Below are positions 11,279 through 54,805 of a DNA stretch of 64,000 nt, piece after piece. This DNA is from a virus, in IMG/VR virus record IMGVR_UViG_3300031834_000002, positions 25,805-89,804 of that record, one strand, 5' to 3'. Numbering within the stretch: position 1 is the stretch's first letter; each line of letters begins with the position of its first letter. A program made the position numbers and the translations under genes. Under the pieces are notes generated by a model, which did no database searches, had not been told where the DNA came from, and was given only the letters and a program-made list of their open reading frames with translations.

Positions 11279-12154
11279 ATGATAAGAACAATAATTTGTG
11301 GCGACCTACATATCGACGAACGCAGTATTCCAGAGATAGACAGTATATTTTCTAATGATATTCTATCTATTGAATCAGATAGGTTTATTCAACTTGGGGA
11401 CTGGTTTCAATCAAATCGCCCTACTCCTTTAGAGCTTACATATTCTACACAATTAGTTTTAAAATTAAAGCAACATTATAAAGAAATAGTCATTCTTTCA
11501 GGAACAGGCGAACACGACCTATTGCATAATGAAAGTGTCATTTCGCATTTAGCGTCTTTAGGCGTGAAAACTATTAAAGGAGATTATATAGATAATACTA
11601 TTCTTTATGGTCATTTTATGGTAAATGAATCACGTTTTGCTTTCGGAACAGCAAGATGTGGTCTAAAAGATTTAGAAAAATATCAATATGTCTTCTTAGG
11701 ACATCAACATAGTCCTCAAGACCTTACAACGACAATATTTCATGTAGGGTCAATTAGATATTGTTCTTTTAATGAAGTAGAAGATAGAAAACAAATCATG
11801 ATATTACAAGATGGATTAATTGCCAATATAGAATTAAAATCTCTAATACCAATGTTAGATGTTACAGATGTAACAAAATTAGAACAATTAGAACCTCGTA
11901 ATAAAGTAAGAGTTATATTTAATTCTTTTGAAGATTATAAGAAAAATGCTTCTTATGTAAATAAGTTAGGGAAGAAATTTTTTCAATTTAAAATTTTGAC
12001 TAACTTTAAGGAATCTAATATTTTAGTGCAATCTTCTAATAGATTAGATATTAAAATTAATAAATCAAATATCATATCGAGTTATTTAGATAACATAAAA
12101 GATATAGAGGTTCGCAACTTATTGAAAGAACAATTTAATGAAAACAAAACATAA
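11279..12154 (+). CDS. sbcD: SbcD/Mre11-type recombination nuclease subunit (gp47-like)
   Basis: Calcineurin-fold nuclease expected to pair with the SbcC-like ATPase downstream for double-strand-end processing. Motifs: Asp9-x-His11 (GDLHID), Asp41 (LGDWF), GTGEHD at 75-80, His112 (YGHF), and His142-x-His144 (GHQHS). The usual Asn of the GNHD motif is Glu78 here. At 291 aa it is shorter than cellular SbcD and close to phage gp47. It overlaps the HNH gene by 17 bases; the partner gene lies 1.8 kb further on. Confidence 0.85.
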   Translation: MIRTIICGDLHIDERSIPEIDSIFSNDILSIESDRFIQLGDWFQSNRPTPLELTYSTQLVLKLKQHYKEIVILSGTGEHDLLHNESVISHLASLGVKTIKGDYIDNTILYGHFMVNESRFAFGTARCGLKDLEKYQYVFLGHQHSPQDLTTTIFHVGSIRYCSFNEVEDRKQIMILQDGLIANIELKSLIPMLDVTDVTKLEQLEPRNKVRVIFNSFEDYKKNASYVNKLGKKFFQFKILTNFKESNILVQSSNRLDIKINKSNIISSYLDNIKDIEVRNLLKEQFNENKT

Positions 12155-12758
12155 TATTAAAACATGTAGATGTGCTTCTTGTGCATCTTTACGAGGAGAA
12201 ACTAAAGGGGTTAATCATCCCAATTTTAAGGATGGTAGAAGTTTAAAATTATATTATTGTAAAGATTGTGGTAAACAAATAACTTGGCAAGCTATAAGAT
12301 GTTTATCTTGTGCTTCTAAATTAAGAATAGGGAAAAGAGAAAATAATCCTAATTGGTTAGGAGGATTTCTTCGAAATAAATGCATCGATTGTAATGAATC
12401 TATAAGTGTATATGTATCAAGATGTCAAGAATGTTATTTAAAAACTATTAAAGGTAAAAATCATCCTATGTATATTGATGGTTTGACTCTTTCTCCTTAT
12501 TCTTCCAAATTCACTAAAAAGTTAAAACAACAAATAAGAGATAGAGATAATCACGAATGTCGGTTATGTTATAAAACCGAAAAACAAGAATTGAAAAAAT
12601 TGAACAAAGTATTGTCTATTCATCATATTGATTATAATAGGCATAATTGTTTACATGAAAATTTAATAACAGTTTGTAATGCTTGCAATTTAAAAGTCAA
12701 TGCTAACAGAGATTATTATTATGCTTATTTTAATTATATTTTAAAAAAGTCAATTTAA
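12138..12758 (+). CDS. free-standing HNH homing-type endonuclease with zinc-ribbon modules (copy B)
   Basis: Inserted between sbcD and sbcC, its start overlapping sbcD. N-terminal repeats CRCASC, CKDCGKQ...CLSC and CIDCNES...CQEC are separated by NHPNFKDG, NNPNWLGG and NHPMYIDG linkers. The C-terminal HNH site has CRLC, SIHHIDYNRHNC and CNACN, ending NANRDYYYAYFNY. The catalytic end is very close to copy H (NKVLSIHHIDYN). DNA cleavage is inferred from family. Confidence 0.85.
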   Translation: MKTKHNIKTCRCASCASLRGETKGVNHPNFKDGRSLKLYYCKDCGKQITWQAIRCLSCASKLRIGKRENNPNWLGGFLRNKCIDCNESISVYVSRCQECYLKTIKGKNHPMYIDGLTLSPYSSKFTKKLKQQIRDRDNHECRLCYKTEKQELKKLNKVLSIHHIDYNRHNCLHENLITVCNACNLKVNANRDYYYAYFNYILKKSI

Positions 12759-15869: not shown

Positions 15870-16224
15870 ATGCCCTAAAAATGTTATAATGTTTAGCGAC
15901 CCGATTTATTGTCAAGATTTTATGGTAGTTGTAACTCCTTCTCATACTAAATATAGAAAGATAATGAAAAAAATGTTAAATTTTGATGTAGAAAAAGATG
16001 ATTCTTGTAGCGGATGTTTTCAAGTAATTCATAATAAAACAAGAGGAGATTTAGGTATTATATGGATTCCTAATAAACAAACTACATTAATTCACGAATT
16101 GTTTCATGCAACTTCATGGTTAATGAGAAATCGAGATATAACGCTTGATTCAGAAGGAGCAGAAGAGGCATGGGCGTATCATATATCTTATCTTTATAAA
16201 GAGATTAAAGAAAGATTAAAATGA
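15859..16224 (+). CDS. zinc metallopeptidase-like protein (HExxH)
   Basis: TTLIHELFHATSW places His79, Glu80 and His83 in a classical HExxH zinc site, with a downstream EGAEEAWAYHIS whose glutamates could give the third ligand. At 121 aa it is a minimal minigluzincin- or SprT-like domain. Several phages carry such short HELFH proteins. The substrate is unknown. AAAGGAG precedes the start; ATGA overlap with the HNH gene. Confidence 0.65.
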   Translation: MKNKCPKNVIMFSDPIYCQDFMVVVTPSHTKYRKIMKKMLNFDVEKDDSCSGCFQVIHNKTRGDLGIIWIPNKQTTLIHELFHATSWLMRNRDITLDSEGAEEAWAYHISYLYKEIKERLK

Positions 16225-16844
16225 TACAAATGAAAAATAAAACTACGATAAAAATTTGTAAAGAATGTAAAAAAGAATTCTTTATAAATTATTATTTTCA
16301 TAATGCTCGAAAATATTGTTCTGATATTTGTCATAAAGAAGCACATAATAAATCCAGTAAAAAATATAATCGCAAAAATAAACAAAAAAGAAAAGATTAT
16401 AATAAAAAATATTATCAAACACATCGAAAATTAATTTTAAAGAGCCAAAAGCAATATAGAGAAAAAAATAAAAAACAACTTAAAGTAAAACGAATTAAAA
16501 ACAAAGAAAAATTAAGATTAAATTTTCAAAAATGGTTAAAAAATCCTATTAATCGATTAATTTATAATTATCGAATTAGACTTTCTCATGTATTATCATC
16601 TGGTATTAAAGATATACCTACTTTAAAATTAATAGGTTGCACAATAGAATTTTTAAAGAACCATTTAGAAAAACAGTTTACTAAAGGTATGTCTTGGTCA
16701 AATTACGGTAAGTGGCATGTTGACCACATTAAACAATGTTGTCTATTTAATTTATCTAAAAAAAGTGAACAATTTAAATGCTTTAACTATAAGAATCTTC
16801 GCCCTTTGTGGGCGAAAGATAATTTTAAAAGACCAAAAAGATGA
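16221..16844 (+). CDS. HNH endonuclease of a second type (copy C)
   Basis: An N-terminal zinc finger (CKECKKEF...CSDIC) and a long lysine-rich helical linker precede a C-terminal nuclease domain with IGCTIEFLKNHLEKQF, MSWSNYGKWHVDHI and NLRPLWAKDN. This is a known phage HNH subtype (GMSW.NYG.WH.DHI). Unlike copies A, B and H it lacks the repeated ribbon plus NHP-W-GG architecture, so it was probably acquired separately. ATGA overlap with the peptidase gene. Confidence 0.8.
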   Translation: MIQMKNKTTIKICKECKKEFFINYYFHNARKYCSDICHKEAHNKSSKKYNRKNKQKRKDYNKKYYQTHRKLILKSQKQYREKNKKQLKVKRIKNKEKLRLNFQKWLKNPINRLIYNYRIRLSHVLSSGIKDIPTLKLIGCTIEFLKNHLEKQFTKGMSWSNYGKWHVDHIKQCCLFNLSKKSEQFKCFNYKNLRPLWAKDNFKRPKR

Positions 16845-17213: not shown

Positions 17214-17624
17214 ATGAAAGATTATATTGGGCAAATTTGTGCATATTATTTGAATAAAAGAAGTAAAAATCAACAAGCGAAGAAACAACAACTTAATGAC
17301 GAAAAGTTAAAAGAAGTTTATACCCGATTACAACAACTTGCGTCTTTTGTTAAATTCTTACATGAAAAAGTTTTTGTAAATCGACATGAAAGAAAAGCAT
17401 TTTGGAAAGATGTTCAAGATGGTAAACCTGTTATGGAAGATATACTTAAACGATTATTAGAACGTTATGGTGTAAAAAAAGAAACAATGGAAGAACTTGA
17501 AAGACGTAAACAAGAATCTATAAAACAAAGGCAAGAAAAAGAAGAAGCAAATCGCAAAAGAATGGAAGAACAAAATAAAGCAAAAGAACCGCCAAAACAA
17601 GAAGAAAAGAAAGATGAAAAATAA
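17214..17624 (+). CDS. charged helical protein, 136 aa
   Basis: Starts right after the previous stop with GAAGGAGGAA upstream. The N-terminal half is a basic helical domain; the last 45 residues are a low-complexity E/K/Q/R helix (RKQESIKQRQEKEEANRKR). Likely a coiled-coil or nucleic-acid-associated protein. Not recognised. Confidence 0.6.
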   Translation: MKDYIGQICAYYLNKRSKNQQAKKQQLNDEKLKEVYTRLQQLASFVKFLHEKVFVNRHERKAFWKDVQDGKPVMEDILKRLLERYGVKKETMEELERRKQESIKQRQEKEEANRKRMEEQNKAKEPPKQEEKKDEK

Positions 17625-18330
17625 AATTGCTTTGATTACAGGAGCAAGTCGGGGTATAGGAAAACAAATCGGATTAGATTTGTTAGATAAAGATTATCAT
17701 GTAATTTTTAATGGCAGAACTTGTCGAAATTTAGATATAATAGCGGAAGAATTACGCCAAAAAAATATAACTGATTTTGATTTATGGGAAGCAGATTTGT
17801 CTAATATTGATGAAATTTATAATATTAATACTCCTTTTCCTGATTTAGATGTTCTTGTTTTAAATGCTGGAATGACCGATAGAACTCCATTTGGCGAGGT
17901 ATCTCTTTCTAATTGGGATAAAATATTCAATACTAATTTAAAAGTTCCTTTCTTCTTAGTTCAAACATTAAAAGATAAAATAAAACCAAATGGAAAAATA
18001 ATATTTATAAGTTCTATTGCAGGATGCACAACAGATTCTACTTCTATAACATATGGGGTCTCAAAAGGTGCTATTCATATTTTAGTGCCCAATTTAGCTA
18101 AAGCATTTGCATCAAAAAATATAACTGTTAATGCAGTTTGTCCTGCTTATATCGATAGCGATTGGCATATAGGTAAATCTAAGGCACAAATAGAACGAAT
18201 AGCAAATAAACATCTGGTAAAAAGATTAGGAACAATAAAAGAAGTATCTAAAGCAGTGTTAAGTATAATAGATAACGATTTTATCAATGGGCAGGTCGTT
18301 CGTGTAGATGGAGGATTTGGAATTGGATAA
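17614..18330 (+). CDS. short-chain dehydrogenase/reductase (FabG-like)
   Basis: Rossmann-fold NAD(P)-dependent oxidoreductase of 238 aa with every classical SDR motif: TGASRGIG (9-16), NAG (84-86), the Ser in FISSIAG (133/134) and Tyr147-x3-Lys151 (YGVSK), ending GQVVRVDGG. The closest look is 3-oxoacyl-ACP reductase FabG, but SDRs act on many sugars and alcohols. Its place at the head of the glycan cassette makes reduction of a sugar or alditol precursor plausible. This is inference. Confidence 0.88.
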   Translation: MKNKIALITGASRGIGKQIGLDLLDKDYHVIFNGRTCRNLDIIAEELRQKNITDFDLWEADLSNIDEIYNINTPFPDLDVLVLNAGMTDRTPFGEVSLSNWDKIFNTNLKVPFFLVQTLKDKIKPNGKIIFISSIAGCTTDSTSITYGVSKGAIHILVPNLAKAFASKNITVNAVCPAYIDSDWHIGKSKAQIERIANKHLVKRLGTIKEVSKAVLSIIDNDFINGQVVRVDGGFGIG

Positions 18331-18823
18331 AATAGAATTTAATCCTAAAGTGCTTGGTTCATATTTTGAAAATAATGTGCGAGAAATGTGTAAATCTTGC
18401 AAACGTTATAATATTAGTTCATCTTGTCCTCCTCATATAGAAACAATAGAATATTATAAAGAATTACTTCCTACTTATTGTAATGGAGTATTATTTATCA
18501 AAAAATTTATTATAAATGATATAAAAAACTGGCAAGAATTAGGAAGAAATTCAAGTGAAGAATTGAGAATAGAAATGAAACCATTTATAGATGGATGTAT
18601 TTATGAAGGTTGCGATGAATATGACTATTATGGTGCTGGCTCATGTAAAAATTGTATAAAATGTTCTTATCCATGTAAATTTCCTAATAAACAATTAATT
18701 CCTATAGAAGGAACTGGTATTAATGTAATAAAATTAGTTAAAGATTTAGCAAATATAGATATTAAATTTCCTGTAGAAAATTATGGATATTTTTATAGAG
18801 TAGGACTGATATTATGGGATTGA
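18308..18823 (+). CDS. DUF2284-like predicted metal-binding protein
   Basis: CKSCKRY...SSCPPHI in the first third, and GAGSCKNCIKC, SYPCKFPN and IEGTGINV in the second half match the cysteine-rich pattern of DUF2284, a family of predicted metal or Fe-S proteins of unknown function. At 171 aa it is near the family size. It overlaps the SDR by 23 bases and the cytidylyltransferase by 10, so all three are likely co-translated. A redox role beside the SDR is possible but unproven. Confidence 0.7.
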   Translation: MEDLELDKIEFNPKVLGSYFENNVREMCKSCKRYNISSSCPPHIETIEYYKELLPTYCNGVLFIKKFIINDIKNWQELGRNSSEELRIEMKPFIDGCIYEGCDEYDYYGAGSCKNCIKCSYPCKFPNKQLIPIEGTGINVIKLVKDLANIDIKFPVENYGYFYRVGLILWD

Positions 18824-19266
18824 AAAAAATAATCTACAGTTCTGGTTCGTATGACCTTTTCCATTTTGGTCATCTAAATGTGCTTCTACAAGCTAAAAAG
18901 TTAGGTTCTATTCTTATTGTAGGAGTTAGTTCGGATAAACTTATAAAATCTTATAAAGGATTAAACCCTATAATTTGTTATAAAGATAGAGCCTCCATTG
19001 TTAAACAATTGAAATGTGTAGATAAAGTAATTAAACAAGATACTTTCTTTGATATTAAACAATTACATAAATACAAAATAGATATTATTGTTCTTGGAGA
19101 CGATTGGAAAGAAAAATCTTTTCCTGAATTAGAAAAATGTCTTAAAGAACTTAATATAAAAATAATATATGTGCCTTATACTAAACGATTGTCAACTTCT
19201 ACTATTAAAGAGACAATTATTAATAATGCCGTCAAAATTATCAAGGCACAAGTAAAAAGAATATGA
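18814..19266 (+). CDS. glycerol-3-phosphate cytidylyltransferase-like (TagD family)
   Basis: Nucleotidyltransferase of the HxGH superfamily. GSYDLFHFGH (His17, His20) binds CTP; VLGDDW and RLSTSTIKE correspond to the TagD regions GDDW and RT.GISTT.IK. TagD makes CDP-glycerol from CTP and glycerol 3-phosphate; related enzymes make CDP-ethanolamine or ADP-heptose, so the exact alditol is open. At 150 aa it is slightly longer than TagD. Two LicD-type genes follow, whose family uses CDP-activated donors. Confidence 0.85.
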   Translation: MGLKKIIYSSGSYDLFHFGHLNVLLQAKKLGSILIVGVSSDKLIKSYKGLNPIICYKDRASIVKQLKCVDKVIKQDTFFDIKQLHKYKIDIIVLGDDWKEKSFPELEKCLKELNIKIIYVPYTKRLSTSTIKETIINNAVKIIKAQVKRI

Positions 19267-19343
19267 AAACAAGAAAAGAATTAGATAAATATAATAAAAA
19301 ATCCCAAAATAAATATCATAAAAAATGGCAAAAGAAAAGATGA
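19263..19343 (+). CDS. possible 26-aa basic peptide
   Basis: Begins with ATGA overlapping the cytidylyltransferase stop and ends with TGA overlapping an ATG at 19340. Composition is K/Q/Y-rich (LDKYNKKSQNKYHKKWQKK), like the linker of the HNH protein at 16221. It may be a relic of such a gene or a translational coupler. Weak. Confidence 0.2.
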   Translation: MKTRKELDKYNKKSQNKYHKKWQKKR

Positions 19344-19921
19344 TAGAACCTATTTATAATAGAGAATATTTTAGTGATAGAAACGAAGACCTAAAAAATC
19401 AGCATATTAAAGATATTTTAGATTTAATAGAATTTTTTAAAGATGTATTTAACTTAAAACTTTATATCGGTTATGGAACTCTCTTAGGTGCTATTAGAGA
19501 ACATGATTTTATTACACACGATAAAGATATTGATTTAGTTTATATAAGTGCTTATGAATCGAAAGAACAAATTAAAAGAGAACTTTTATTTAAAATTGCA
19601 GAAATATTAAAACAATATAATATGTTAGTAAAAGATTTTAATAATAGAGGTCAATTACATGTAAGAGTTCCAAATGGAAGTTTAGTTGTAGATATTTTTA
19701 CCTCTTGGATTTCTAATAATATGTATAATCTTGTTCCTTTTGGAGAACTTTGTTCAAAAGATATAATTTATCCTTTTAAATCTTGTTTACTTAGAAATGC
19801 ATATTTTGAAATTCCTAATCAAAGTGAAGTATTGCTTAATATTTTATATAAAGATTGGATGAATTCAATACCAAAAAATGAAAACTATTTAAAACTTTTA
19901 AAAAGGAACGATTTAAAATGA
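19325..19921 (+). CDS. LicD-family phosphotransferase
   Basis: YGTLLGAIREHDFITHDKDI (residues 50-69) is the signature of the LicD/fukutin nucleotidyltransferase fold, which moves phosphocholine, phosphoribitol or related groups from CDP donors onto sugars. 198 aa, one domain, ending in the family-typical region after FEIPNQSEVLLNILY and KDW. ATG 19325 is used; ATG 19340 is an alternative. ATGA overlap with the next gene, itself LicD-containing. Confidence 0.82.
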   Translation: MAKEKMIEPIYNREYFSDRNEDLKNQHIKDILDLIEFFKDVFNLKLYIGYGTLLGAIREHDFITHDKDIDLVYISAYESKEQIKRELLFKIAEILKQYNMLVKDFNNRGQLHVRVPNGSLVVDIFTSWISNNMYNLVPFGELCSKDIIYPFKSCLLRNAYFEIPNQSEVLLNILYKDWMNSIPKNENYLKLLKRNDLK

Positions 19922-22221
19922 CACAAACAGAATTATTATTAAAAGTAAAAGAATTATTAGATAAAAATAATATCTCTTTTTGGCTAATGGGAGGAACTTT
20001 ATTAGGAGCTGTTAGAGATAAAAGTTTTATAAAACATGATGACAAAGATATTGATATAGGACTTTATTCTAAAGACCAATGGAAAGTTAAAGAATTAATA
20101 GAAAATTCGGAATTTAAGTTTAAATATTGTTGGAGAAAAGAATTTGCAATTCATTATGGAGAAGAAGTTCATCCTCATTTAGATTTTTTCTTTCACGATA
20201 TAATAGATAATAGTGCTCATTGGTATTTTTATACTCCGAACCAATTTGATAAAATTTGGAATGTCGAAAATAGATTAACAATATCTAAAAAAATTTTAGA
20301 ACCTTTAAATACAATAGAATTCTTAAATACGACTTTTAAAGTTCCTAATAAAACAGAAGAATACTTAGTAAATTGTTATACTGAAAACTGGACAACTATT
20401 AATCCTGATTGGCATTATAGTCAAATACCTGCCTTTGAACCAGATTATCAACCAATTACTGCTATTGTTCCTTCTTTTTTAAGAGACGAATGTTTAGCAA
20501 AATTAGTTACTTCTTTTAGAAAATATTATCCTAAAATGCCTTTAATTATAGGCTATCAAGGGAAATCTCAAAATCCTATTATACCTGATGAATATACTAA
20601 AATTCTTGAATTACCATATGATTGTGGACTTTCTTGTTCCAGAAATTCTTTAGTAGCAGAAGTAAAAACTCCTATGACATGGCTTTTAGATGATGATTTT
20701 ATTATATCTCCCACTGCTAATATCTATAAAATGGCAGAAGTATTTGGTGCAGATAAAAATATAGGCATTGTTGCTGGAAGATTTCTACAAAATAATGAAA
20801 TATTTCCTTATGAAAAATTATTTGAATTTAGCGGAGATATGTTATTTGGAGTTTATTGGGAAGCCTTACATAAGGCTAAATTAGTTCATCTTTATAAATA
20901 TAATAGATTAGAATTTGGTTATGCTGATATTGTGCATAACTTTTTTATAGCTAAAACAAAAATATTAAAAAAATATACTTGGGATAATCGACATAAAGTG
21001 CATAGTGTAACCGAAGAAACTCCTGTTATTATTAAAGATGGGTTTAATAATATTAAAATTATACCTATAGAAAATTTAATGCCACAAAGTTATCAAACAT
21101 TAAAAAATAAAGAATGGAAAGTCAAAGGAAATATATCTATTTGGAGCGATATAGGATGGCAAAAAATAAAATATGTGTCTAAACATACTGTTAATAAAAA
21201 AATGTATAAAATTAAAACAGTAAAAGGATTTATCGAATGTTCTGAAAATCACAGTTTAATAATTAATAATAAAGAAGTAGAACCTAAAACTTTAAAATTG
21301 AATCAAACTATAGAACAACTAAATTTTCCAAAATTAAATAACGAAATAAAATTAAATAAATATTGGGCTTGGTTTTTAGGATTCTTTTTAGCAGAAGGGT
21401 GCTATAGAAAAAATTATATAAGTATCTCTAATCAAAATTTAAAACATCTTAAAAGATGTATGAAGGCATTAAATATGTTTGGAATCGAATATCATTTAGT
21501 AGATAAAAAACAACGAAAAGATAAATGTTATCAATTACAAATACATAATACTAAAATATATGCAGAATATTTTCGTAAATTTTATACTCCAAATTTTAAA
21601 ACTAAAACAATACCAAATTTTTTATTTAAAACAGATAAAAAATCTCGATATAATTTTATTAATGGATTTTTAAATGGAGATGGATATAAAAAAGGAAGAA
21701 AATATAGACATAATTATAGAACTTTTTCTTCTAAATATCTTAATGTTTTACAAGGAATTTCTTTTTTATTATCAGATTTTATAACTCATTATTGGTTTAA
21801 TATAGACCAAAATGAATTAGGTAAATGGTGGGTTTTTAACTTTTCATCTTCTAATTTTCCTTCTCATAAATCTGTAAATATTATTACTAAAATAGAGTCC
21901 TATAATGCAATCCAAATACCTTTATATGATATAGAAACCGAAAATCATCATTTTTGCGGAGGGATAGGAAATATTAACTTACATAATAGTGAACATTTAG
22001 ACTTTTTCTTAAATCTAAAAATAAATTCTAATGTAAAAGTTGCTTTTATTCCAAATCTTACAGTTATTCACGATAAACAGACAAACTCTGTATATAAAGA
22101 ACATAGAACAAGGCAATATTATGACTTAATTTATGAAAAGTATGGTTTAAGAATAGGATATAGTTTAGGAGAAAATAATATATTTAATTATAAAGAAAAT
22201 AGATTGGAAAAATTACCATGA
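19918..22221 (+). CDS. LicD + GT2 fusion interrupted by an intein
   Basis: After removal of the 328-residue intein (residues 363-690) the mature protein would be 439 aa. Residues 1-175 are a LicD domain (GGTLLGAVRDKSFIKHDDKD). From about 180 follows a GT2 glycosyltransferase with ITAIVPSFLRDE, YDCGLSCSRNSLV, metal-binding LLDDDF, and after the splice the SEHLDFFLNL acceptor-side motif. Such a bifunctional enzyme could add a sugar and then a CDP-derived phosphoalditol. ATGA overlaps link it to both neighbours. Confidence 0.85.
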   Translation: MTQTELLLKVKELLDKNNISFWLMGGTLLGAVRDKSFIKHDDKDIDIGLYSKDQWKVKELIENSEFKFKYCWRKEFAIHYGEEVHPHLDFFFHDIIDNSAHWYFYTPNQFDKIWNVENRLTISKKILEPLNTIEFLNTTFKVPNKTEEYLVNCYTENWTTINPDWHYSQIPAFEPDYQPITAIVPSFLRDECLAKLVTSFRKYYPKMPLIIGYQGKSQNPIIPDEYTKILELPYDCGLSCSRNSLVAEVKTPMTWLLDDDFIISPTANIYKMAEVFGADKNIGIVAGRFLQNNEIFPYEKLFEFSGDMLFGVYWEALHKAKLVHLYKYNRLEFGYADIVHNFFIAKTKILKKYTWDNRHKVHSVTEETPVIIKDGFNNIKIIPIENLMPQSYQTLKNKEWKVKGNISIWSDIGWQKIKYVSKHTVNKKMYKIKTVKGFIECSENHSLIINNKEVEPKTLKLNQTIEQLNFPKLNNEIKLNKYWAWFLGFFLAEGCYRKNYISISNQNLKHLKRCMKALNMFGIEYHLVDKKQRKDKCYQLQIHNTKIYAEYFRKFYTPNFKTKTIPNFLFKTDKKSRYNFINGFLNGDGYKKGRKYRHNYRTFSSKYLNVLQGISFLLSDFITHYWFNIDQNELGKWWVFNFSSSNFPSHKSVNIITKIESYNAIQIPLYDIETENHHFCGGIGNINLHNSEHLDFFLNLKINSNVKVAFIPNLTVIHDKQTNSVYKEHRTRQYYDLIYEKYGLRIGYSLGENNIFNYKENRLEKLP
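21004..21987 (+). mobile_element. intein with LAGLIDADG homing endonuclease domain
   Basis: In-frame 328-aa insert in the glycosyltransferase. Splice junctions are H/Ser1 (block A SVTEETPVI) and Asn328/Ser+1 (block G NINLHN followed by SEH). Block B is CSENHSLI, and block F is near LYDIETENHHFCGG. Two LAGLIDADG-type motifs, LGFFLAEG and FINGFLNGDG, mark an apparently intact homing endonuclease. Removing the insert restores a continuous GT2 motif region (NRHKVH/SEHLDFF). All splicing residues look present, so activity is expected but not shown. Confidence 0.93.
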
Positions 22222-23561
22222 AAATTAAATTTAATAAAGAAGTGGCTATTGGAATAACTACATTTCTTCGCAATGCTTCGTTATATAAACTTATCGAATC
22301 TATATGCGAATATTTGCCAGATATTAAAATGTATATAGTAGACCAAAATATATCCACTAAATTTAAAAAAGCTTTATATGAAGGATTAAAAACTCAAGGA
22401 CATGTCATCAAAAGTATTGAATACGATTGCGGAATAAGCAATGCAAGAAAAATACTTAAAAATTTAGTAAAAGAACCTTTTATAGCTTGGATGCAAGATG
22501 ATTTTACTATTACTCCTAAAACTAATTTAATGAATATGGTAAATATTTTAAAATCTAACCCCAAACTTGGTGTAGTAGGAGGAAGAATAGAAGGGTCTCC
22601 TATAGCAGGAAGTTATAGTTATTATTTTCTAAGATGGGGAGATGGGCTTTTTTATTTACCTGTAAGCCATTGTTTAGAAAAAGGAATTATTCAATGGCAA
22701 AAAACTCCTGAAGGACTTTCGTATGTTCCTGCTGATATAGTATCAGAATTTACAGTTTGGAAAAAAGAAGTTCCTAATATTTTCGATGAAAAAGTTAAAG
22801 TTATAGAACATTCTCATGTTTATTTACTTTTAAAATATAATACTAAATGGCAAGTTGCTTATACTCCTGATTCTGAAATCATACATTGGCATGATAGAAA
22901 TGAACCTGCCTATACTAAATTTAGAAGTAGAAAAGAAGATATAGACTACATTCAAAAATATTGGAATATAACAGAATGGGTAAAATTCGATGTTAATAAA
23001 TATAAATTTTTACTTGAACATATTAATTATCATATTCCTATAACAAATAATAGAATATTAAAGAACGAATCTATTCCATTAATACCAAAAGATTCTCTCA
23101 AAGAAAAAATTGAAAAAGATAATCAAACTTTACAAACTCTTTCTACTGATATTACTATTAGTCCTTCTCTTAATATGATTAATGCTGAAATTTATGATAT
23201 ATTTAATGAATTTATTTCTATTATGAATAATTTTGATAAAAATTGTTTTTTAAGAGAGCAAACTTGTTGGGAAGCTGTAGTAAAACATTCTATTATTACT
23301 TCTCCTTTGTATATATCTATTCCTAAATTGAATCAATACGAATTACAATGTCTAATTAATAAAGGATTTAATTATATTGAATCAAATAATACCTTTACTA
23401 AAAATAATTATTCTATAATTGTAGATTATAAATTACCTCAAAATTTTAAAATCGTAACTGTCGAAAATGGTAAATATTTAGTGCCTTTTCCTGTCCATCC
23501 ATATTTAAAACGATTATATGGACAAGATTGGAAAGAATTAGGTAATAAAAATGGGAACTAA
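22218..23561 (+). CDS. GT2 glycosyltransferase with degenerate LicD-like C-terminal domain
   Basis: Residues 1-260 form a GT2 domain: IGITTFLRNASL, YDCGISNARK, WMQDDF (metal motif) and a later EHSHVYL in the place of EHEDFF. Residues about 310-447 end in VPFPVHPYLKRLYGQDW, like the C-terminal part of LicD proteins, but no GTLLGA...D.D nucleotidyl motif is seen. This half is probably a non-catalytic relic or binding domain. It is paralogous to the two flanking GT2 genes. Confidence 0.78.
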   Translation: MKIKFNKEVAIGITTFLRNASLYKLIESICEYLPDIKMYIVDQNISTKFKKALYEGLKTQGHVIKSIEYDCGISNARKILKNLVKEPFIAWMQDDFTITPKTNLMNMVNILKSNPKLGVVGGRIEGSPIAGSYSYYFLRWGDGLFYLPVSHCLEKGIIQWQKTPEGLSYVPADIVSEFTVWKKEVPNIFDEKVKVIEHSHVYLLLKYNTKWQVAYTPDSEIIHWHDRNEPAYTKFRSRKEDIDYIQKYWNITEWVKFDVNKYKFLLEHINYHIPITNNRILKNESIPLIPKDSLKEKIEKDNQTLQTLSTDITISPSLNMINAEIYDIFNEFISIMNNFDKNCFLREQTCWEAVVKHSIITSPLYISIPKLNQYELQCLINKGFNYIESNNTFTKNNYSIIVDYKLPQNFKIVTVENGKYLVPFPVHPYLKRLYGQDWKELGNKNGN

Positions 23562-24405
23562 AATAGGAATTATAGTTACAACTTTCTTACGCAATTCTTT
23601 ATTAGAACGAATTATTGGTTCTATTTTAGCCAATTGGAAAGATGAATATATCCTCTTTATAGGTAATCAGGGGATTTTAGACGAAAATCATCTTAAATAC
23701 CTTCAAAATGCCCTTAATTTACAGGGGTTTAAGGCAGAGAATTCAATAATTAACGATATTACAGGACAATCTACCAAAAAAGCGAAAATAGATGGTTTAT
23801 TAGCATATAATGACAAAATTAAGTATTATAGATTGTCTTATGATTGTGGACTTAGTTATGCTCGTAATTTCTTAGTGCAAGAAGCAAATAAAGTAGGATG
23901 TAATTATATTTTTCTTACCGCAGATAGTTATGAATTTAAAGATTATAATTTAGAACCAATAATAGAATTTTTAGAATCCGATGATAAAAATGGTTTAGTA
24001 GGATTTATTGAAGATGAAAAAAAAGACCCCTATTGGAGTTGGGATTTAGAACTTGTTCCTAATCAACATTTTTTATTAAAAAGACCTAAACAACCTATAA
24101 TAGAATTTAAAGAACTTAAATTTCAACCTTGCAATGTAACCCAAAATTTTTATTTAGCAAAAACTAAAATGCTATTAGATGTTCCTCATGATAATGATTT
24201 GAAATTATGTGAACATGAAGATATAATGTATCGTTTTAAATTAGCTGGTTATAAGGTCTTTTTTAATGATTCGATTCATTGTAAATATATTAACCAAAAA
24301 CCAAACGAATATTCTGAAAAAAGACAAAGAATCTATAATGAATTTAAAAAGAAATTACAAGAAAAATATCATATTAAAGGATGGATAAGAATAGATAGAA
24401 GTTAA
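23551..24405 (+). CDS. GT2-like glycosyltransferase with altered metal motif
   Basis: Starts inside the previous gene. IGIIVTTFLRNSLL and YDCGLSYARNFLV are shared with the two upstream GT2 proteins, and EHEDIMYRFKLAG matches the catalytic-base region. At the DXD position it reads TADSYEF, lacking the second aspartate, so donor binding or activity may be changed. 284 aa, single domain. Last gene before a 53-base gap that contains no obvious promoter. Confidence 0.75.
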   Translation: MGTKIGIIVTTFLRNSLLERIIGSILANWKDEYILFIGNQGILDENHLKYLQNALNLQGFKAENSIINDITGQSTKKAKIDGLLAYNDKIKYYRLSYDCGLSYARNFLVQEANKVGCNYIFLTADSYEFKDYNLEPIIEFLESDDKNGLVGFIEDEKKDPYWSWDLELVPNQHFLLKRPKQPIIEFKELKFQPCNVTQNFYLAKTKMLLDVPHDNDLKLCEHEDIMYRFKLAGYKVFFNDSIHCKYINQKPNEYSEKRQRIYNEFKKKLQEKYHIKGWIRIDRS

Positions 24406-24458
24406 AATTACCATACTATATATAAAACTATACATGTTGTTAGGTAACTAAAAATACT

Positions 24459-25163
24459 ATGGAAAATAAATCCAATCAATTAATAATTTTAGGAGGTGGT
24501 TCAAGTATTTCAGAAGGTTTATCTTTTGGGCTTTGGGATAAACTAAAAGGGCATTTTGTTATCGGAACTAATTACAGCTACAAATTCTACGAAGCAACCT
24601 TACAAACATATGTAGATAGCACCTTCTACACTCAAAATTTCGAAGATATAAAAAAATTGCCCTTGATAATAGGACAAGGACGACATATAGATATGAAAAA
24701 TAGACCAGAAAATTCTTTTGTTATTTCTACAAATCATATATATAATAGAGATTTAAAAGATGGAGTTTATAGTGCAATGCTTGTAGGGTTATACTCTCTT
24801 TCTTTAGGTATTTATTTATTAGATTTTGGAGAAATTTATTTATTAGGTTTTGACTATGGTAATATAGATAATAAAGTCGATGACAAAAAAAGAAAAATTA
24901 CTCATTTTTATCAAAGTCAAATCAATCATCGTGGTATTGGAAAAACAAGTTGGTATGATGCAAAAAATCGTGCAGACAAGGATTTTGGAGTTTATTCTTC
25001 CGAAAAACAATGTAAAATTTATAATGTTTCTCCATTATCAAAAATAAATATCTTTGAAAAAATTTCATATGAACAATTCTTTATGAAATTAGATAATAAA
25101 ACTTTTGACCAAAATGAATTGAGGAATTATGTTAAGGAACAACTTAAAAACAAAATTAAGTAA
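24459..25163 (+). CDS. DUF115-like / glycosyltransferase-associated protein
   Basis: LIILGGGSSISEG at the N-terminus, VIGTNYSY and LLGFDYG are arranged like DUF115 (MptE-like) and related glycan proteins, which have a Rossmann-type start with G-x-G-x-S. 234 aa, soluble. It belongs to the glycan cassette by position. The reaction is unknown; sialyltransferase-like or pyrophosphokinase-like activities have both been linked to such folds. Confidence 0.55.
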   Translation: MENKSNQLIILGGGSSISEGLSFGLWDKLKGHFVIGTNYSYKFYEATLQTYVDSTFYTQNFEDIKKLPLIIGQGRHIDMKNRPENSFVISTNHIYNRDLKDGVYSAMLVGLYSLSLGIYLLDFGEIYLLGFDYGNIDNKVDDKKRKITHFYQSQINHRGIGKTSWYDAKNRADKDFGVYSSEKQCKIYNVSPLSKINIFEKISYEQFFMKLDNKTFDQNELRNYVKEQLKNKIK

Positions 25164-25665
25164 TCTTATTTTCGGAGGGATAATTGGAGGCATTTTAGGT
25201 GCGTTGGGAGGAACAGATAATTCATCTAAAATCTTTCGTAGAATTTCTTTACCTCTATTTCTTGCTGGAACTGCATGGAATCATTTACACCATTGGTATA
25301 TATTTAGTATATTATTGCTAATTCCTATTTTTAGTATAGGATATGGAATCCCTTCAAAAGATGATAAAGGCAGTTGGTTAGGTAGGTCTTTTTATGCCTT
25401 ATTTGGTCATAATATGCCATTAGCGAACATATTTACAAGGGGAACGATAGGATGTCTTATTTCCCTTGTTTTAGCCCCCATAGCATTATTAAAGGGCGAT
25501 TTAGTGGTATATTTGATAGGTTGTCTCGTTATTATAGTAGTTTTTGCGACATTATCTTGGAAAGACTTAGGAGGATTTGAATTTCAAGGAAAAAGGCTAC
25601 TTTGGAGCGAATTTACCCCTTATTTCGTAGTATCTATTATTATATTACTTTTAATCTATTTTTAA
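25129..25665 (+). CDS. multi-spanning membrane protein, 178 aa
   Basis: Four to five hydrophobic segments (around residues 12-27, 56-76, 104-122, 125-142 and 165-178), a conserved-looking GGTDNSSKIFRR loop and short polar loops. It overlaps the DUF115-like gene by 35 bases. Recurrent in phages, function unknown. It could anchor or export a glycan, act as a holin-like pore, or exclude superinfection; none of these can be shown. Ends 6 bases from the convergent leftward operon. Confidence 0.65.
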   Translation: MLRNNLKTKLSNLIFGGIIGGILGALGGTDNSSKIFRRISLPLFLAGTAWNHLHHWYIFSILLLIPIFSIGYGIPSKDDKGSWLGRSFYALFGHNMPLANIFTRGTIGCLISLVLAPIALLKGDLVVYLIGCLVIIVVFATLSWKDLGGFEFQGKRLLWSEFTPYFVVSIIILLLIYF

Positions 25666-31967: not shown

Positions 31968-32648
31968 TTAACTAACAGTTATAGTAATCTTATGTATCAA
32001 TTTATCTATATCTTTTAATTCATGTTCCCAAATAATTAAAGTTTTATAGCCATATTTTTTATAGGTATTTAATCTGCGTTTGTTTCTTTCTCCGAATTTT
32101 GAAGGACGATGCCAATAATCTCCATAAAGTTCTATAATCTTTTTTTGTCCATTAATATTTATAAAATCTGGACAAAATTCTCCAATTATCATTTTTCCAT
32201 TACCGACAAATTTATATTCATTTGGAAATACTTTTTGCAGTATTTTATTTAATAATTTTTCTGATTTATTTGGACTTTGACGATTGCCTTTTAATCGTTT
32301 TCCAAGAGTTTCTATAGAAGAACAAATCAAACATCTTTTGCTTCTATAATCAATTAATTGTTTTCCACAATCTACACATTTAGGCAGTTTTGATAATTTG
32401 CCATAAGAATGATGATTTTTTCCACATCTAAATTTACCAGCACAAGAACGACAATTACCCTTTCCATATTTCCAACTTCTATAACTTATTTCATTATCAC
32501 ATTCTTTACAATAATGAATTTTTCCTGTTTCTCCTCCAGTTGCCATTGCATCTAAATATTTAACTCTACATTTCCAACACCTTTTAGGAGGATTTAATTT
32601 ACCTCTATTTTGTAAAAGTATATTACAATCTATACAATAATTTTTCAA
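31968..32648 (-). CDS. zinc-ribbon homing-type endonuclease with Vsr-like domain (copy E)
   Basis: Three to four Cx2C...Cx2C ribbons (CIDC...CWKC, CKEC...CRSC, CVDCGK...CLIC) precede a C-terminal domain with NKSEKLLNKIL, GEFCPDFI, KIIELYGDYWH and YKTLIIWEHEL. This is the arrangement of Vsr-like (EDxHD) homing nucleases: an early Glu, the Asp of PDFI, Glu/Asp of ELYGD, and His. It is inserted between tail genes. The ribbons are of the same kind as in the HNH copies, but the catalytic fold is unrelated. Confidence 0.78.
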   Translation of the reverse strand: MKNYCIDCNILLQNRGKLNPPKRCWKCRVKYLDAMATGGETGKIHYCKECDNEISYRSWKYGKGNCRSCAGKFRCGKNHHSYGKLSKLPKCVDCGKQLIDYRSKRCLICSSIETLGKRLKGNRQSPNKSEKLLNKILQKVFPNEYKFVGNGKMIIGEFCPDFININGQKKIIELYGDYWHRPSKFGERNKRRLNTYKKYGYKTLIIWEHELKDIDKLIHKITITVS

Positions 32649-33190: not shown

Positions 33191-33559
33191 TCATCGCCAC
33201 CCCAAAGAATTAAGAGATTTTATAAAGGTGTCATTTATATTATATTCTATTCTCTCTATATTACTATTTTTTAAATTAATTTTATAACAAACAACTTTAT
33301 CATTTTTAGACCCCATAACATAAGCATATTCTAAATTAACTTTTCCATTATTTTTACCATTCAAATCATTAGTGCCTTCAATAAAATGATAGTATTTATC
33401 ATACATATCTAAACATAAATGGTTTCCATCAGGAAGAGTATAGAATAATCTTTTAATCTTTTTATCTGGAATTTCTGTCCATTTTGTTTTATAATAATCT
33501 CCTCCTGTGTAGATACTTTCGTCCTCAAGAACTGCTACAAAAAGAGGTTTAATATTCAT
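33191..33559 (-). CDS. conserved phage protein, 122 aa
   Basis: LEDESIYTGGDYYKTKWTEI followed by PDKKIKRLFYTLPDGNHL resembles a small phage family (GG..Y...W..IP..KI..L...LP.G) often near tail genes, function unknown. It overlaps the PD-(D/E)XK endonuclease gene by 4 bases. Beta-rich; no cysteine pairs. Confidence 0.6.
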   Translation of the reverse strand: MNIKPLFVAVLEDESIYTGGDYYKTKWTEIPDKKIKRLFYTLPDGNHLCLDMYDKYYHFIEGTNDLNGKNNGKVNLEYAYVMGSKNDKVVCYKINLKNSNIERIEYNINDTFIKSLNSLGWR

Positions 33560-34323
33560 GAGATTACTCCTATCTTTTGTAAATCTTTCTCGAAAAGAAC
33601 TTTAAAATTTACCTCGGAATATATTTTTCTAAATAAATTTATTTTGTTCTTAGCAATTGTAGTTAAATAACCTTTTATTTCTATATATTCTTTAGTTTTA
33701 GGTAAGTAAAAGTCAGGTGTATAAGTAGTATCTACTAAATCAAAAGTTTTAGATTCATATAACCATTTTATTTTTTCTCTGTCTAAATATTTAGCATATT
33801 TTACTTCCCAATAACTTCTAAACCAAATATTATTATATTGCACAAATTTTGGTTTCATTGGTTTTCCGAAATTAGGATTATTCTTACCTGACATTAATAT
33901 ACTCATTTTTTGTTTTGTTTCTTTTGTGCGAAGTTTATCTGTCATATTTATTCTATTGGCACATGATTTACAATGACCAATTCCATCTTTCCATGTCTTA
34001 TATTCAATCCGTTTATCACAAATAGAACAATAATGATTGATTAAAGTTCTTCCATCTATAAAATTCAGAGCATTTTCTCCTGTTCTGTTTTTATTTGCAA
34101 CACTTACTGCTGAATTTTTTCTACCTTTCATTATTTTACTGTGTTCTGGTCTTTTTTTACCTCTCCAGCAAGCAGTATCTCTTCGAGGAATATTATATTC
34201 TTTCAATCGATTATAAATAGTCATAGTAGTTGTATTTAATTCTATAGCAATTTCTTTCATTGATTTCTTTTTATTTATATATTCCTCGTAAAGAAAGTCA
34301 AATAAAATATTTAATTTTTTCAT
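33556..34323 (-). CDS. homing-type endonuclease: HTH, zinc ribbon and PD-(D/E)XK domain (copy F)
   Basis: N-terminal helix-turn-helix (KSMKEIAIELNTTTMTIYNR), two NUMOD3-like stretches (KRPEHSKIMKGRKN and KETKQKMSILMSGKNN), one ribbon CSICDKR...CKSCAN, then a nuclease core FRSYWEVKYAKYLD, YTPDFYLP and YIEIKGY, i.e. E, PD and ExK. Modular DNA binding with a PD-(D/E)XK cutter is known among homing endonucleases. Preceded in translation by tail genes and overlapping the 122-aa gene. Confidence 0.8.
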   Translation of the reverse strand: MKKLNILFDFLYEEYINKKKSMKEIAIELNTTTMTIYNRLKEYNIPRRDTACWRGKKRPEHSKIMKGRKNSAVSVANKNRTGENALNFIDGRTLINHYCSICDKRIEYKTWKDGIGHCKSCANRINMTDKLRTKETKQKMSILMSGKNNPNFGKPMKPKFVQYNNIWFRSYWEVKYAKYLDREKIKWLYESKTFDLVDTTYTPDFYLPKTKEYIEIKGYLTTIAKNKINLFRKIYSEVNFKVLFEKDLQKIGVIS

Positions 34324-40627: not shown

Positions 40628-41281
40628 TTAGACTTTTACCATTGTAGTGGATTTCTTCTCCATTAAGAAAAACCACTTGATATAATTATCTACCATACTA
40701 TTTTTTACTAAATATTCATAAGTTTCTTGATGAAGTTTATGATGAAATGCCATACTTGTAAGATAGAAAAAATTATCTTTGTTATTATTTTCTCTATCAC
40801 AATCTATATGATGAAGCACATTTTGTGCTATCATAGCTTTTGGATATTTTTTTAAAAATTCTTTTATATAATTTTTATGTAATCCTAAATAAACTAAATA
40901 TTCATATCCTTTCCAATGCATACTCAAATGCTGTGATTGAGTGATTTTTAATATTCGATTACTATTTTCTTTTAAATCTATATGATGTCTAATGATTGTA
41001 TCTTTATTACTTTTTCCTAACCAATATTTATTTGGATTATTAATCTTAGCACAAGAAGAACATCTATGTTTACCGATTCTATGATTTTCATAACTTATCT
41101 TATTACGACAATCTCTGCATTTATAATATTTTTTGTTAAATTTTCTTCCATCTATAAACATTGGATTATTTCTCCCTTTATTTGCACAAGAACGACAATG
41201 ACCTTTTCTATACAAAGCAGTTCGAGAAGATATTCGTTTGCCACATTTACAGAAATATTTTATATCGAATTGTTTATTCAT
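40628..41281 (-). CDS. HNH homing-type endonuclease with zinc-ribbon modules (copy G)
   Basis: CKCGKR...CRSCAN, a NNPMFIDG linker and CRDCRNK...CSSCAK are followed by two HHID motifs: IIRHHIDLKENSNR with QHLSMHWKGYEYLV, and VLHHIDCDRENNNK with FHHKLHQETYEYLV. The second looks like the catalytic HNH_3-type site; the first may be a duplicated or degenerate one. It lies just upstream of the tail tube gene, 14 bases away. Confidence 0.8.
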   Translation of the reverse strand: MNKQFDIKYFCKCGKRISSRTALYRKGHCRSCANKGRNNPMFIDGRKFNKKYYKCRDCRNKISYENHRIGKHRCSSCAKINNPNKYWLGKSNKDTIIRHHIDLKENSNRILKITQSQHLSMHWKGYEYLVYLGLHKNYIKEFLKKYPKAMIAQNVLHHIDCDRENNNKDNFFYLTSMAFHHKLHQETYEYLVKNSMVDNYIKWFFLMEKKSTTMVKV

Positions 41282-43157: not shown

Positions 43158-43297
43158 TACAGTAGTCCTAATTTTTTTGCTATTAATAGAATTAATTCTC
43201 TTATTTCTTTATCTGTAAGAGATTTCTCATCTCTTTTTTTAAACTTAGAATATTCTTTAATTTTTTTTAGTTCTTGTTCGTTAATTAATCTTTTCAT
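43157..43297 (-). CDS. small basic protein, 46 aa
   Basis: Overlaps the LamG gene stop by ATGA and the next ATG by one base. The end LTDKEIRELILLIAKKLGLL resembles a recurrent tiny phage protein found between head and connector genes. Function unknown. Confidence 0.5.
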   Translation of the reverse strand: MKRLINEQELKKIKEYSKFKKRDEKSLTDKEIRELILLIAKKLGLL

Positions 43298-49293: not shown

Positions 49294-49983
49294 TTATGAA
49301 ACTAAAATAGTAGAAATAAGTTCTGTGAAATATGAGAACCAATAATCACGATTTTTATTTACTTTAGTATTACAAGAACTGCAAAGACTTATTAAATTAA
49401 TATCTGAACAATTTTCTTTATTATAATCGATGTGATGAATTGATAAAACTTTATTTAATTCTTTAAGTTCTTGTTCTTCATTTTTATAGCAACATTGGCA
49501 TTTATAATCGTCTCTTATACGAATCGATTCTTTTAAAGATGCGTTAAATTCAATAGTATAAGGAAATCGAGAAAGACCACCTAACCACATTGGATGATTT
49601 TCAGGGTTCTTATATTGTGAGATTCTGGCACAATGTTTGCAACGTTTATCATTATCGTAACAAGCTGTATGATTTAATTCTTTATTACAATCTTTACAAT
49701 ATCTTTTACGAGATTCTATACCACCTTTGAAAGTAGGATGTTTATTTCCATATTTACCAAAACAAGGATTTGTTTCTGGATATAAACGATATTGTTCTTT
49801 ACGAGCACATGAACGACATCTTTTATCACCACGATAACAAGCAAGTTTATGTAATTCTTTCTCACAATCGCAACAATTAATAGTTTCATGTTTAGATTTA
49901 GCGAGAAAACATTTTCTACAAATCTTCACATGTTTTGCACTTACTTTTTTACCACATTTCTTACAATTTGAAGTTTTTCTCAT
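49294..49983 (-). CDS. HNH homing-type endonuclease with zinc-ribbon modules (copy H)
   Basis: Three ribbons (CKKCGKK...CRKC, CCDCEKE...CRSCAR, CKDCNKE...CKHCAR) with GNKHPTFKGG and NHPMWLGG linkers, then an HNH end CQCC, SIHHIDYNKENC, CSSCN and NKNRDYWFSYF. It lies just behind the major capsid gene and has its own promoter (50002-50030), with AGGGAAAG right before the ATG. Its C-terminal half is close to that of copy B. Confidence 0.87.
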   Translation of the reverse strand: MRKTSNCKKCGKKVSAKHVKICRKCFLAKSKHETINCCDCEKELHKLACYRGDKRCRSCARKEQYRLYPETNPCFGKYGNKHPTFKGGIESRKRYCKDCNKELNHTACYDNDKRCKHCARISQYKNPENHPMWLGGLSRFPYTIEFNASLKESIRIRDDYKCQCCYKNEEQELKELNKVLSIHHIDYNKENCSDINLISLCSSCNTKVNKNRDYWFSYFTELISTILVS

Positions 49984-53737: not shown

Positions 53738-54805
53738 TTATAATTCTTCCTGATTTATTAGCCCATCGTTATCTATTGTTATTCTCCATCTTGTTCCGTC
53801 GGGAGATTTTAAAATTATTCCTTTTAATGCATCAGTTATTTCTAAATTTTTGAATTTTATATTTCCATCTGCTTTTACCTCTGCGTCGTAATCTATTCCA
53901 TCTCCTTCTTGCGATTGAACTCCAAAAACAGTTTCATAAGGAGAAACTATAATTGCAGTTGGTGTTTGAGTTGGAGTAGTTGTGCTTCTAATTCTAATAA
54001 AATTTCCTAAAAATCCATTAATTGTCGTCATTTTCCAATCAGATGGATTATTATAAAATAATTTTCCAGATTGTGTTAAATTTAAAGTTCCGTCATCAAT
54101 TAAACCAACATCTACCCAAGTATCTTCTTCATTAAAATATTCAACAACTAAATTTATTCCTATACCAACTGTATCTATAGCAAAATATATTTCTCCATAC
54201 CAATAATTCATATTATCTACTGATACATAAAATCTATCATTATTATCTGTTAATATATCAAAAGGAATTCCAGTTTTTGTTCTTGCTTTATCAGTTAAAT
54301 CGGTATAATCGGCTCCATCAAAATAACATACCGAACTAAAAGGGTAAGGCGTAATTGCGACTTCTCTATATTGTCCTTTAATATTATCTGCACCAATGAC
54401 CATTTTATTTGTTAATACCTGTCCATCATTATCGCCAACAATATTTCCTGTAATCCCATGCACTCCAGTTGTAGCGTCTATGTGGTCTTGAACAGAAATT
54501 CCACTGTCATTAGTAGGAACAGTATCGGCGATTTGATTATCGCTATTTGGTGCATGAGAAATTCCTTGTAATGAATCGAGTTTATCCTGAACAGATATAC
54601 CAGATTCATCTGTTGGGACTGTATATGCTGTTTGATTATCGCTTTCAGGAGAATGTTTTTTTAAAATTGCATCGGCTATATCGAGGTCGGCTTTTACTTC
54701 ATCTAAAGTAATTCCTCCTGATGATAAAGAAGCAACATATTCATCAGTAAGTATTCTCTGTAATAATCCTGTTGTAGGATTGATAATATTTTTATATTTT
54801 TTCAT
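53738..54805 (-). CDS. tail or head fibre protein, 355 aa
   Basis: The N-terminal anchor YKNIINPTTGLLQRILTDEY is shared with the 527-aa fibre at 55184. A linker repeats the unit SDNQ.A.TVPT..SGISVQD twice. The C-terminal part is beta-rich (DGTLNLTQSGKLFYNN, GIILKSPDGTRWRI), typical of fibre tips. It lies in a block of four appendage genes between portal and protease. Confidence 0.65.
   Translation of the reverse strand: MKKYKNIINPTTGLLQRILTDEYVASLSSGGITLDEVKADLDIADAILKKHSPESDNQTAYTVPTDESGISVQDKLDSLQGISHAPNSDNQIADTVPTNDSGISVQDHIDATTGVHGITGNIVGDNDGQVLTNKMVIGADNIKGQYREVAITPYPFSSVCYFDGADYTDLTDKARTKTGIPFDILTDNNDRFYVSVDNMNYWYGEIYFAIDTVGIGINLVVEYFNEEDTWVDVGLIDDGTLNLTQSGKLFYNNPSDWKMTTINGFLGNFIRIRSTTTPTQTPTAIIVSPYETVFGVQSQEGDGIDYDAEVKADGNIKFKNLEITDALKGIILKSPDGTRWRITIDNDGLINQEEL

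Follow-up and report, generated by a model that had tools for sequence, protein, structure and literature searches.

Glycan genes have been described in phages in several forms. Some 'Flandersviridae' gut phages carry an ispD-licD pair, for which isoprenoid and teichoic-acid roles were proposed (Benler et al. 2021, PMC8008677), and polysaccharide clusters of the P-SSM2 type occur in cyanophages and jumbo phages (Iyer et al. 2021, PMC7824862). In mycobacteriophages, phage-encoded glycosyltransferases (GTs) decorate capsid and tail-tube proteins, as cited in a later article (Freeman et al. 2023, via PMC12363180). Outside phages, the capsule locus of Haemophilus influenzae has conserved flanks and a serotype-specific centre (PMC6790013), Acs1/Bcs1 combine a reductase with a CDP-ribitol synthase (PMC6790013 and its reference 19) and ISPD supplies CDP-ribitol to FKTN/FKRP on alpha-dystroglycan (PMC4873967). 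Here we analysed a 64,000-nucleotide stretch (the window; positions 25,805 to 89,804 of IMG/VR record IMGVR_UViG_3300031834_000002) of an 89.8-kb virus that encodes tail and tape-measure proteins and a DNA polymerase (G000) and, within it, a glycan gene cassette at 17614-25665. We put at about 70% the probability that this cassette represents one allele of a locus for phage glycan assembly, in which a constant part is combined with exchangeable cargo and which passes a phospho-group on to a glycan from a CDP donor. The reading is built on which genes are present, their motifs, the anatomy of the intein, conserved linkage and the exchange of cargo, all of them seen in the sequences; the evidence is comparative throughout and the contigs are metagenomic.

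An earlier note on this DNA knew of no named system of this composition, which was too broad, since the ispD-licD pair (PMC8008677) and, in the accessible part of PMC7824862, nucleotidyltransferase/GT clusters had already been described in phages. The window resembles 'Flandersviridae' in having adjacent cytidylyltransferase and LicD genes in a variably present phage insertion, but in those phages the enzyme is IspD-type, no GTs and no SDR or DUF2284 genes accompany it and the pair sits in the replication module. Adjacent IspD and LicD genes were also found here in a gut phage (L011, MT121964, 7166-8786), for which a CDP-alditol donor for LicD suggests itself as a simpler explanation than isoprenoid synthesis; we offer the same explanation for the published pair. 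P-SSM2-type clusters share with the window HIGH-family nucleotidyltransferases, several GTs and polymorphism among related viruses; however, the accessible part of the report mentions no LicD, deals with NDP-sugars instead of LicD-transferred phospho-groups and describes no fixed slot with alternative cargos. The H. influenzae locus likewise has constant regions around its cargo, and its reductase and CDP-ribitol synthase recall the IspD-SDR allele of one viral contig (L068), but it is a bacterial capsule locus with separate proteins and dedicated export machinery, of which there is none here, and the window has a TagD-type enzyme. In the FKTN/FKRP-ISPD pathway, which unlike the window belongs to the eukaryotic Golgi, LicD-fold enzymes act with CDP-ribitol on a glycan that contains GalNAc; FKRP (fukutin-related protein) is the best PDB match of our LicD profile (9e-23) and B4GALNT1 that of the GTs, a result that depends in part on the set of solved structures. 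Mycobacteriophage virion glycosylation differs in that neither LicD nor CDP-donor synthesis is described in the accessible text.

Phage glycan clusters, the ispD-licD pair and virion glycosylation are already known singly. As far as the searched sources show, what appears to be new is that LicD, cytidylyltransferase and GT12 genes are broadly linked in viral contigs, that alternative sugar-donor cargos occupy one fixed slot and that a predicted intein lies at a GT active-site motif. The pairing of LicD with a cytidylyltransferase, published for one phage case, is extended to many viral contigs, and phage surface-glycan genes, mostly reported as isolated moron genes, are found here in a defined slot comparable across related viruses.

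Cassette layout and exchange of the cargo

The cassette consists of nine tightly packed open reading frames (ORFs), all on the plus strand, whose junctions are 4-35 bp overlaps apart from two gaps of 58 and 53 bp. Pfam and NCBIfam matches back the SDR, DUF2284, cytidylyltransferase-like, two LicD and three GT2 assignments that had been made for this run of consecutive genes. The features are as follows:

17214-17624, +, 136-aa gene, upstream border of the variable slot; homologue beside different cargo in G028 (E 1.1e-26, 40%) and in L068 (2e-10)
17614-18330, +, SDR reductase, proposed alditol-phosphate-forming step (PF00106, 2e-39)
18308-18823, +, DUF2284 Cys-rich putative metal-binding protein (PF10050, 3e-23)
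18814-19266, +, TagD/HldE/PCYT2-like cytidylyltransferase, proposed nucleotidyl donor activation (PF01467, 1e-20)
19325-19921, +, LicD1, stand-alone LicD-type phosphotransferase (PF04991, 5e-7)
19918-22221, +, LicD2-GT2a fusion precursor, interrupted by the predicted intein (Pfam LicD 8e-10, GT2 2e-5)
21004-21987, +, predicted intein with LAGLIDADG homing endonuclease domain, 328 aa, S363-N690 (TIGR01445, LAGLIDADG_3)
22218-23561, +, GT2b, GT12-like GT with a degenerate LicD-like C-terminal domain (AF2 model, Foldseek, hhalign)
23551-24405, +, GT2c glycosyltransferase (PF00535, 9e-8)
24459-25163, +, DUF115/GT42-like putative GT, constant gene of the locus (51% identity to the G028 copy; weak profile match)
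25129-25665, +, membrane protein, partly constant gene of the locus (59% identity to the G028 copy)

The motifs of the LicD, cytidylyltransferase, SDR and GT-A domains are all intact. Promoter-like matches did not exceed the shuffled expectation (79 versus 79.4).

Comparison with relatives divided the cassette into variable cargo (17614-24405) and a conserved part made up of DUF115 and the membrane protein (24459-25665). G028 (91,572 bp) is collinear with the window phage over nearly the whole genome, mostly at 40-80% identity. Homologues of the 136-aa upstream gene (40%), DUF115 (51%) and the membrane protein (59%) delimit its slot. The genes in this slot are of the UDP-FucNAc type (a GT2, a WecB-type 2-epimerase, a PseB/FnlA-type dehydratase, an RmlD-like reductase, a GT29-like gene and a Nucleotid_trans gene). 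Neither LicD nor CTP_transf genes were found anywhere in G028. The cargo of G027 (62,962 bp), which has DNA polymerase, primase-helicase, SbcCD and tail genes in common with the window phage, occupies the same position, between SbcCD and convergent tail genes, and comprises a GT-LicD-GT12 fusion, GT2c, two DUF115 genes, a pyruvyl transferase, a GT29-like gene, a weak CTP_transf match and an APS kinase gene.

A scan with DUF115 yielded 42 loci, of which 27 are clearly related (about 25 after dereplication). The slot is marked by the DUF115/GT42-like gene, usually together with the membrane protein, whose homologues were found in L069, L070, L073, L077 and L079. IspD, SDR, UPF0047, LicD/GT, GT2c and DUF115 fill the slot of L068, L091 carries LicD1, TagD, SDR, UPF0047, LicD/GT and GT2c, and in L075 and L086 LicD occurs together with G028-type cargo. 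GT2c cargo (nine loci) and NucT cargo (14 loci) were never found together in the 27 loci (P about 1.5e-4). Since the same slot has different cargo in collinear relatives, 17614-25665 is, by its sequence, a serotype-like glycan locus in which a constant end is combined with swapped donor/transferase cargo. The exchangeable slot had been overlooked in the earlier note. Since it pairs a constant gene with donor pathways that plainly differ, as capsule loci do, it can be tested which surface these phages alter and what makes it variable.

Linkage of the module in other viral contigs

An alignment search for LicD gave 26 viral loci, including L013-L016, which lie at contig edges, may be host sequence beside prophages and have no cytidylyltransferase. 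PF01467 was present in 13 of the 26 contigs, each time within 1.3 kb of the PF04991 gene (median 387 bp), and a test of this placement, with near-duplicates dropped, gave a combined P of about 1e-5. The corresponding search for the GT12-like GTs gave 18 viral contigs, with LicD at 3.3 kb or less in 13, a TagD-like gene at 3 kb or less in six and terminase, portal or coat genes at 4.4 kb or less in 14. The gene order was terminase-portal-capsid-GT-LicD-GT12-TagD in L032 and LicD-TagD-GT12-terminase in L038; the cassette lies downstream of the major capsid gene in L030, L032 and L037, and in Salinibacter phages a related GT is found two genes after the capsid gene. Fusion proteins joined LicD to TagD in L036 and GT2 to TagD in L020.

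The donor genes were found in the same company. The order is SDR-DUF2284-TagD-LicD...GT2c...DUF115 in L082 and DUF115...DUF2284-SDR-TagD-LicD1-LicD/GT fusion-GT2c in L083, so that the SDR accompanies DUF2284 and TagD in both; the DUF2284 protein of the window has copies in these contigs at 43-44% identity, with conserved Cys motifs. A LicD1 homologue adjoins TagD in L083 and L091, and GT2c homologues lie beside LicD/GT genes in G027, L068, L078, L079, L082, L083 and L091. The search for conserved synteny that had been proposed as a check therefore found linkage, and supports the claim that donor synthesis and transfer are encoded together as a conserved system; since the module recurs and its motifs are intact, its genes are neither confined to unlinked single copies nor inactive by their motifs. 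A chance cluster of unrelated accessory genes, in line with the lack of the entire cargo in the immediate genomic relative G028, is hardly credible and is largely refuted already by this linkage, given the same combination in L082 and L083, the LicD-TagD and LicD-GT12 linkage across many viral contigs and the mutual exclusion of GT2c-type and NucT-type cargos described above.

These relatives were detected through alignments only; none came up when LicD2-GT2a, GT2b, the terminase/portal-like ORF or DUF2284 was used as a single protein to scan viral contigs. Two TagD matches, L006 (LR756511) and L007 (MT835584), were discarded as they had no cassette synteny. In 84,980 prokaryote genomes, the GT12-like family had a single match, a phage contig in a metagenome-assembled genome; because the scan needs exact short patterns, this near-absence is suggestive at most. 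Sulfotransferase-like genes adjoin GT12-like GTs in L091 (11705-12439, Pfam), L012 (7342-7983) and L051 (2270-2893), the latter two recognised solely from a GTGRCGT-type motif, which hints at sulfation of phage glycans. By sequence inspection, M50-like ORFs adjoin glycan genes in L083 and L091.

Donor synthesis, transferases and a predicted intein

We infer every chemical step of the pathway from these genes. The SDR, with DUF2284, would reduce a keto-sugar phosphate and the TagD-like enzyme would activate the product with CTP. LicD1 and the LicD2 domain would move the phospho-group from the CDP donor onto a glycan assembled by GT2a, GT2b and GT2c (GT12-like, probably adding N-acetylhexosamine) and the DUF115/GT42-like enzyme, and LicD2-GT2a would first need removal of the intein that splits its GT active site. 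A CDP-activated phospho-group is likely as the donor. Its alditol nature, to which we incline somewhat, is proposed because the SDR is recurrently paired with either of two non-homologous cytidylyltransferases, of TagD type or IspD type, ahead of LicD/GT. The SDR motifs TGASRGIG, NAG and YGVSK are intact. CDP-ribitol synthesis of the TarI/TarJ or Bcs1 type combines an IspD-family enzyme with a reductase; the window has an SDR with a TagD-type enzyme instead, and the L068 slot has IspD (5e-27) with an SDR.

The TagD-like enzyme presents HFGH at residue 17 and STS at residue 127, matches PF01467 with 74.3 bits and belongs to the CTP_transf_like superfamily. It scored 85.8 bits with TIGR01518, the TagD equivalog (cut-off 165.4), and 87.3 bits with the HldE model (cut-off 181.5), and its best PDB match was the ethanolamine-phosphate cytidylyltransferase PCYT2 (1e-22), followed by glycerol-3-phosphate (7e-18) and phosphonate (4e-17) cytidylyltransferases. 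The superfamily and the HxGH motif of the TagD-like label are sound, but glycerol-3-phosphate is not assignable from scores so far below both cut-offs with PCYT2 as the best PDB match. Because PCYT2 is the closest solved cytidylyltransferase, CDP-ethanolamine or other donors are possible. A donor such as CDP-ethanolamine, CDP-choline, CDP-phosphonate or an ADP-heptose-like sugar, with SDR and DUF2284 doing something else, has to be reckoned with at somewhat less than even odds: the phosphonate enzyme matches too, the HldE and TagD models score equally and far under their cut-offs, and LicD1 and LicD2 both match a cholinephosphotransferase model (NCBIfam). However, an SDR with either cytidylyltransferase type before LicD/GT follows the known logic of reductase and CDP-ribitol synthase, and the cassette is without choline or ethanolamine kinase genes.

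The window SDR also had matches in the phage database, but these seemed to be generic SDRs from short or poorly curated entries and were uninformative on it. UPF0047 proteins lie between the SDR and the LicD/GT fusion in L068 (6232-6714) and L091 (14208-14606); UPF0047 and DUF2284 seem to alternate beside the SDR, and a functional replacement is possible. By sequence inspection, a DUF2061-like membrane domain is found beside or fused to the TagD-like enzyme in L027 (9777-10169) and L032 (11361-12011).

Both window LicD domains score above the Pfam cut-off and contain GTLLGAxR and the D-x-D-x-D Asp triad (GTLLGAIR..HDKDID in LicD1), whose Asp columns are invariant in 19 viral LicDs; the family motifs are present, and phospho-transfer from a CDP donor is predicted from them. 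LicD2-GT2a, which retains the invariant LicD and GT residues, matched B4GALNT1 (1.5e-6, phmmer) and FKRP (6e-4) in the PDB. Glycos_transf_2 matches in three window proteins ranged from 2e-5 to 8e-8, and the three GT2s resemble GT12, the GT12-like label referring to the GT-A fold, the B4GALNT1 likeness and the DDF and EH motifs that are present, apart from CAZy membership. The AlphaFold2 (AF2) model of GT2b had a predicted local distance difference test score (pLDDT) mostly above 90 across residues 11-220, the GT-A domain, and human B4GALNT1 was its best PDB match by fold (Foldseek, 5e-16) and by sequence. The C-terminal 135 residues of GT2b aligned to the LicD profile (hhalign 91%, E 1e-6) and look like a third LicD-like domain, seemingly inactive because SPLYISIP replaces the Asp motif. 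Two LicD domains and three GT2 paralogues had been recognised before; this degenerate third domain and the GT12 (B4GALNT1) and LicD-FKRP relationships had been overlooked. The DUF115-like label is weakly supported: the window protein alone had no Pfam match, its G027 homologues matched MptE-like at 0.003 and 0.027, below cut-off, and a three-sequence profile matched the CstII sialyltransferase (GT42) at 0.007. A structure model of this protein was too poor to be used (pLDDT 44.8).

The 767-aa ORF at 19918-22221 encodes a LicD-GT2 precursor, with LicD at about residues 1-170 and a GT12-like GT-A domain at 180-362 and 691-767, that is interrupted by an insert at residues 363-690. The insert scored 27.0 bits with TIGR01445 (cut-off 24.5), matched LAGLIDADG_3 at 5e-9 and aligned with a solved V-ATPase intein through to its terminal Asn (5e-7); its PF14890 score was below the cut-off. 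At its junctions the sequence reads H|S and HN|S, with S363 as the first residue, H689-N690 as the last and Ser at +1. Excision would yield ...WDNRHKVHSEHLDFFL, which aligns without gaps to ...WDTNIKVAYEHSDFFL of an intein-free viral homologue, and the extein would then read KVHSEHLDFF versus KVAYEHSDFF in homologues. No other homologue examined has an insert at this site, directly before the conserved EH motif of GT2a, whose E and H are invariant across 17 homologues. Since the insert adjoins this motif, the active site would be split in unspliced LicD2-GT2a. The insert at 21004-21987, overlooked when the LicD/GT2 gene content was correctly described, is an intein by sequence criteria, and its splicing is predicted. 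In the literature, which is only partly searchable, no intein in a GT was found. The family B DNA polymerase of G028 (L061:1472-4981, 1169 aa) has an insertion of about 320 aa with a weak Hint match (0.0025) that is absent from the window phage polymerase, pointing to intein polymorphism within the same lineage.

Target of the glycan

Regarding the surface that carries the glycan, we lean slightly to the virion, because several other phages have such cassettes within their capsid or terminase operons; we rate it a little short of even odds, with the host envelope as the next candidate and any other target as improbable. Modification of the host envelope during infection, by superinfection exclusion or receptor masking, is preferred by published authors for phage licD and GT clusters (PMC8008677; PMC7824862). 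This is a serious possibility, with which the conserved membrane protein, cargo swaps among relatives like those of bacterial surface serotype loci and the lack of a G028 counterpart of the LamG-like tail protein (43294-45735) agree. It is opposed by the LicD/GT12 cassettes that several unrelated phages have within late structural operons, beside capsid or terminase genes, and by the single, phage-borne GT12 match in 84,980 prokaryote genomes.

Thymidylate-synthase-family proteins are the usual source of hydroxymethylated bases, and the known substrates of LicD and GT42-like enzymes are glycans. Both facts bear on the idea that the enzymes glycosylate phage DNA, which is very improbable: no thymidylate-synthase-family protein (PF00303) was found in G000, G027 and G028, where TET/JBP-type hydroxylases were not searched for, although phage GTs are able to hypermodify DNA, as cited in a review (PMC12619734).

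Several points weigh against our proposal of a CDP-donor glycan locus, and of a virion target in particular. The proposal does not account for DUF2284, no equivalog-level model gives a substrate for the cytidylyltransferase, the two LicD domains are short with modest scores and the enzyme class of the DUF115 gene is based on weak profile matches. The LicD of L082 is fused to a GT4-type domain and not to a GT12-like one. The cassette of the window phage lies outside the structural operon, and its membrane protein is equally compatible with a host-envelope target. The most specific version, a fukutin-like phospho-alditol glycan on the virion, made by a serotype-like exchangeable locus and with the intein controlling maturation of the LicD-GT, is unlikely; if it were true, a swap between UDP-FucNAc-type and CDP-alditol-type cargo would change the 'coat serotype' of the virion.

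Other genes of the window phage also showed variation or unusual content. Three tail-region proteins, at 43294-45735 (apparently with two LamG-like domains), 53738-54805 and 55184-56767, have no counterpart in G028, receptor-binding-type tail genes varying as the glycan cargo does. Free-standing ORFs resembling HNH-type homing endonucleases with zinc-finger-like N-termini, most with G028 copies, occur in both arms (2204-2833, with a weak HNH_3 match, 12138-12758, 16221-16844, 31968-32648, 33556-34323, 40628-41281 and 49294-49983). The left arm of G000 carries an M16 peptidase, an M50 (site-2-type) peptidase, an MFS/BT1-type transporter and a stand-alone GGDEF domain (L004:12443-13600, L005:6272-6916, L005:7048-8253 and L004:7833-8315), which are unusual cargo for a phage.

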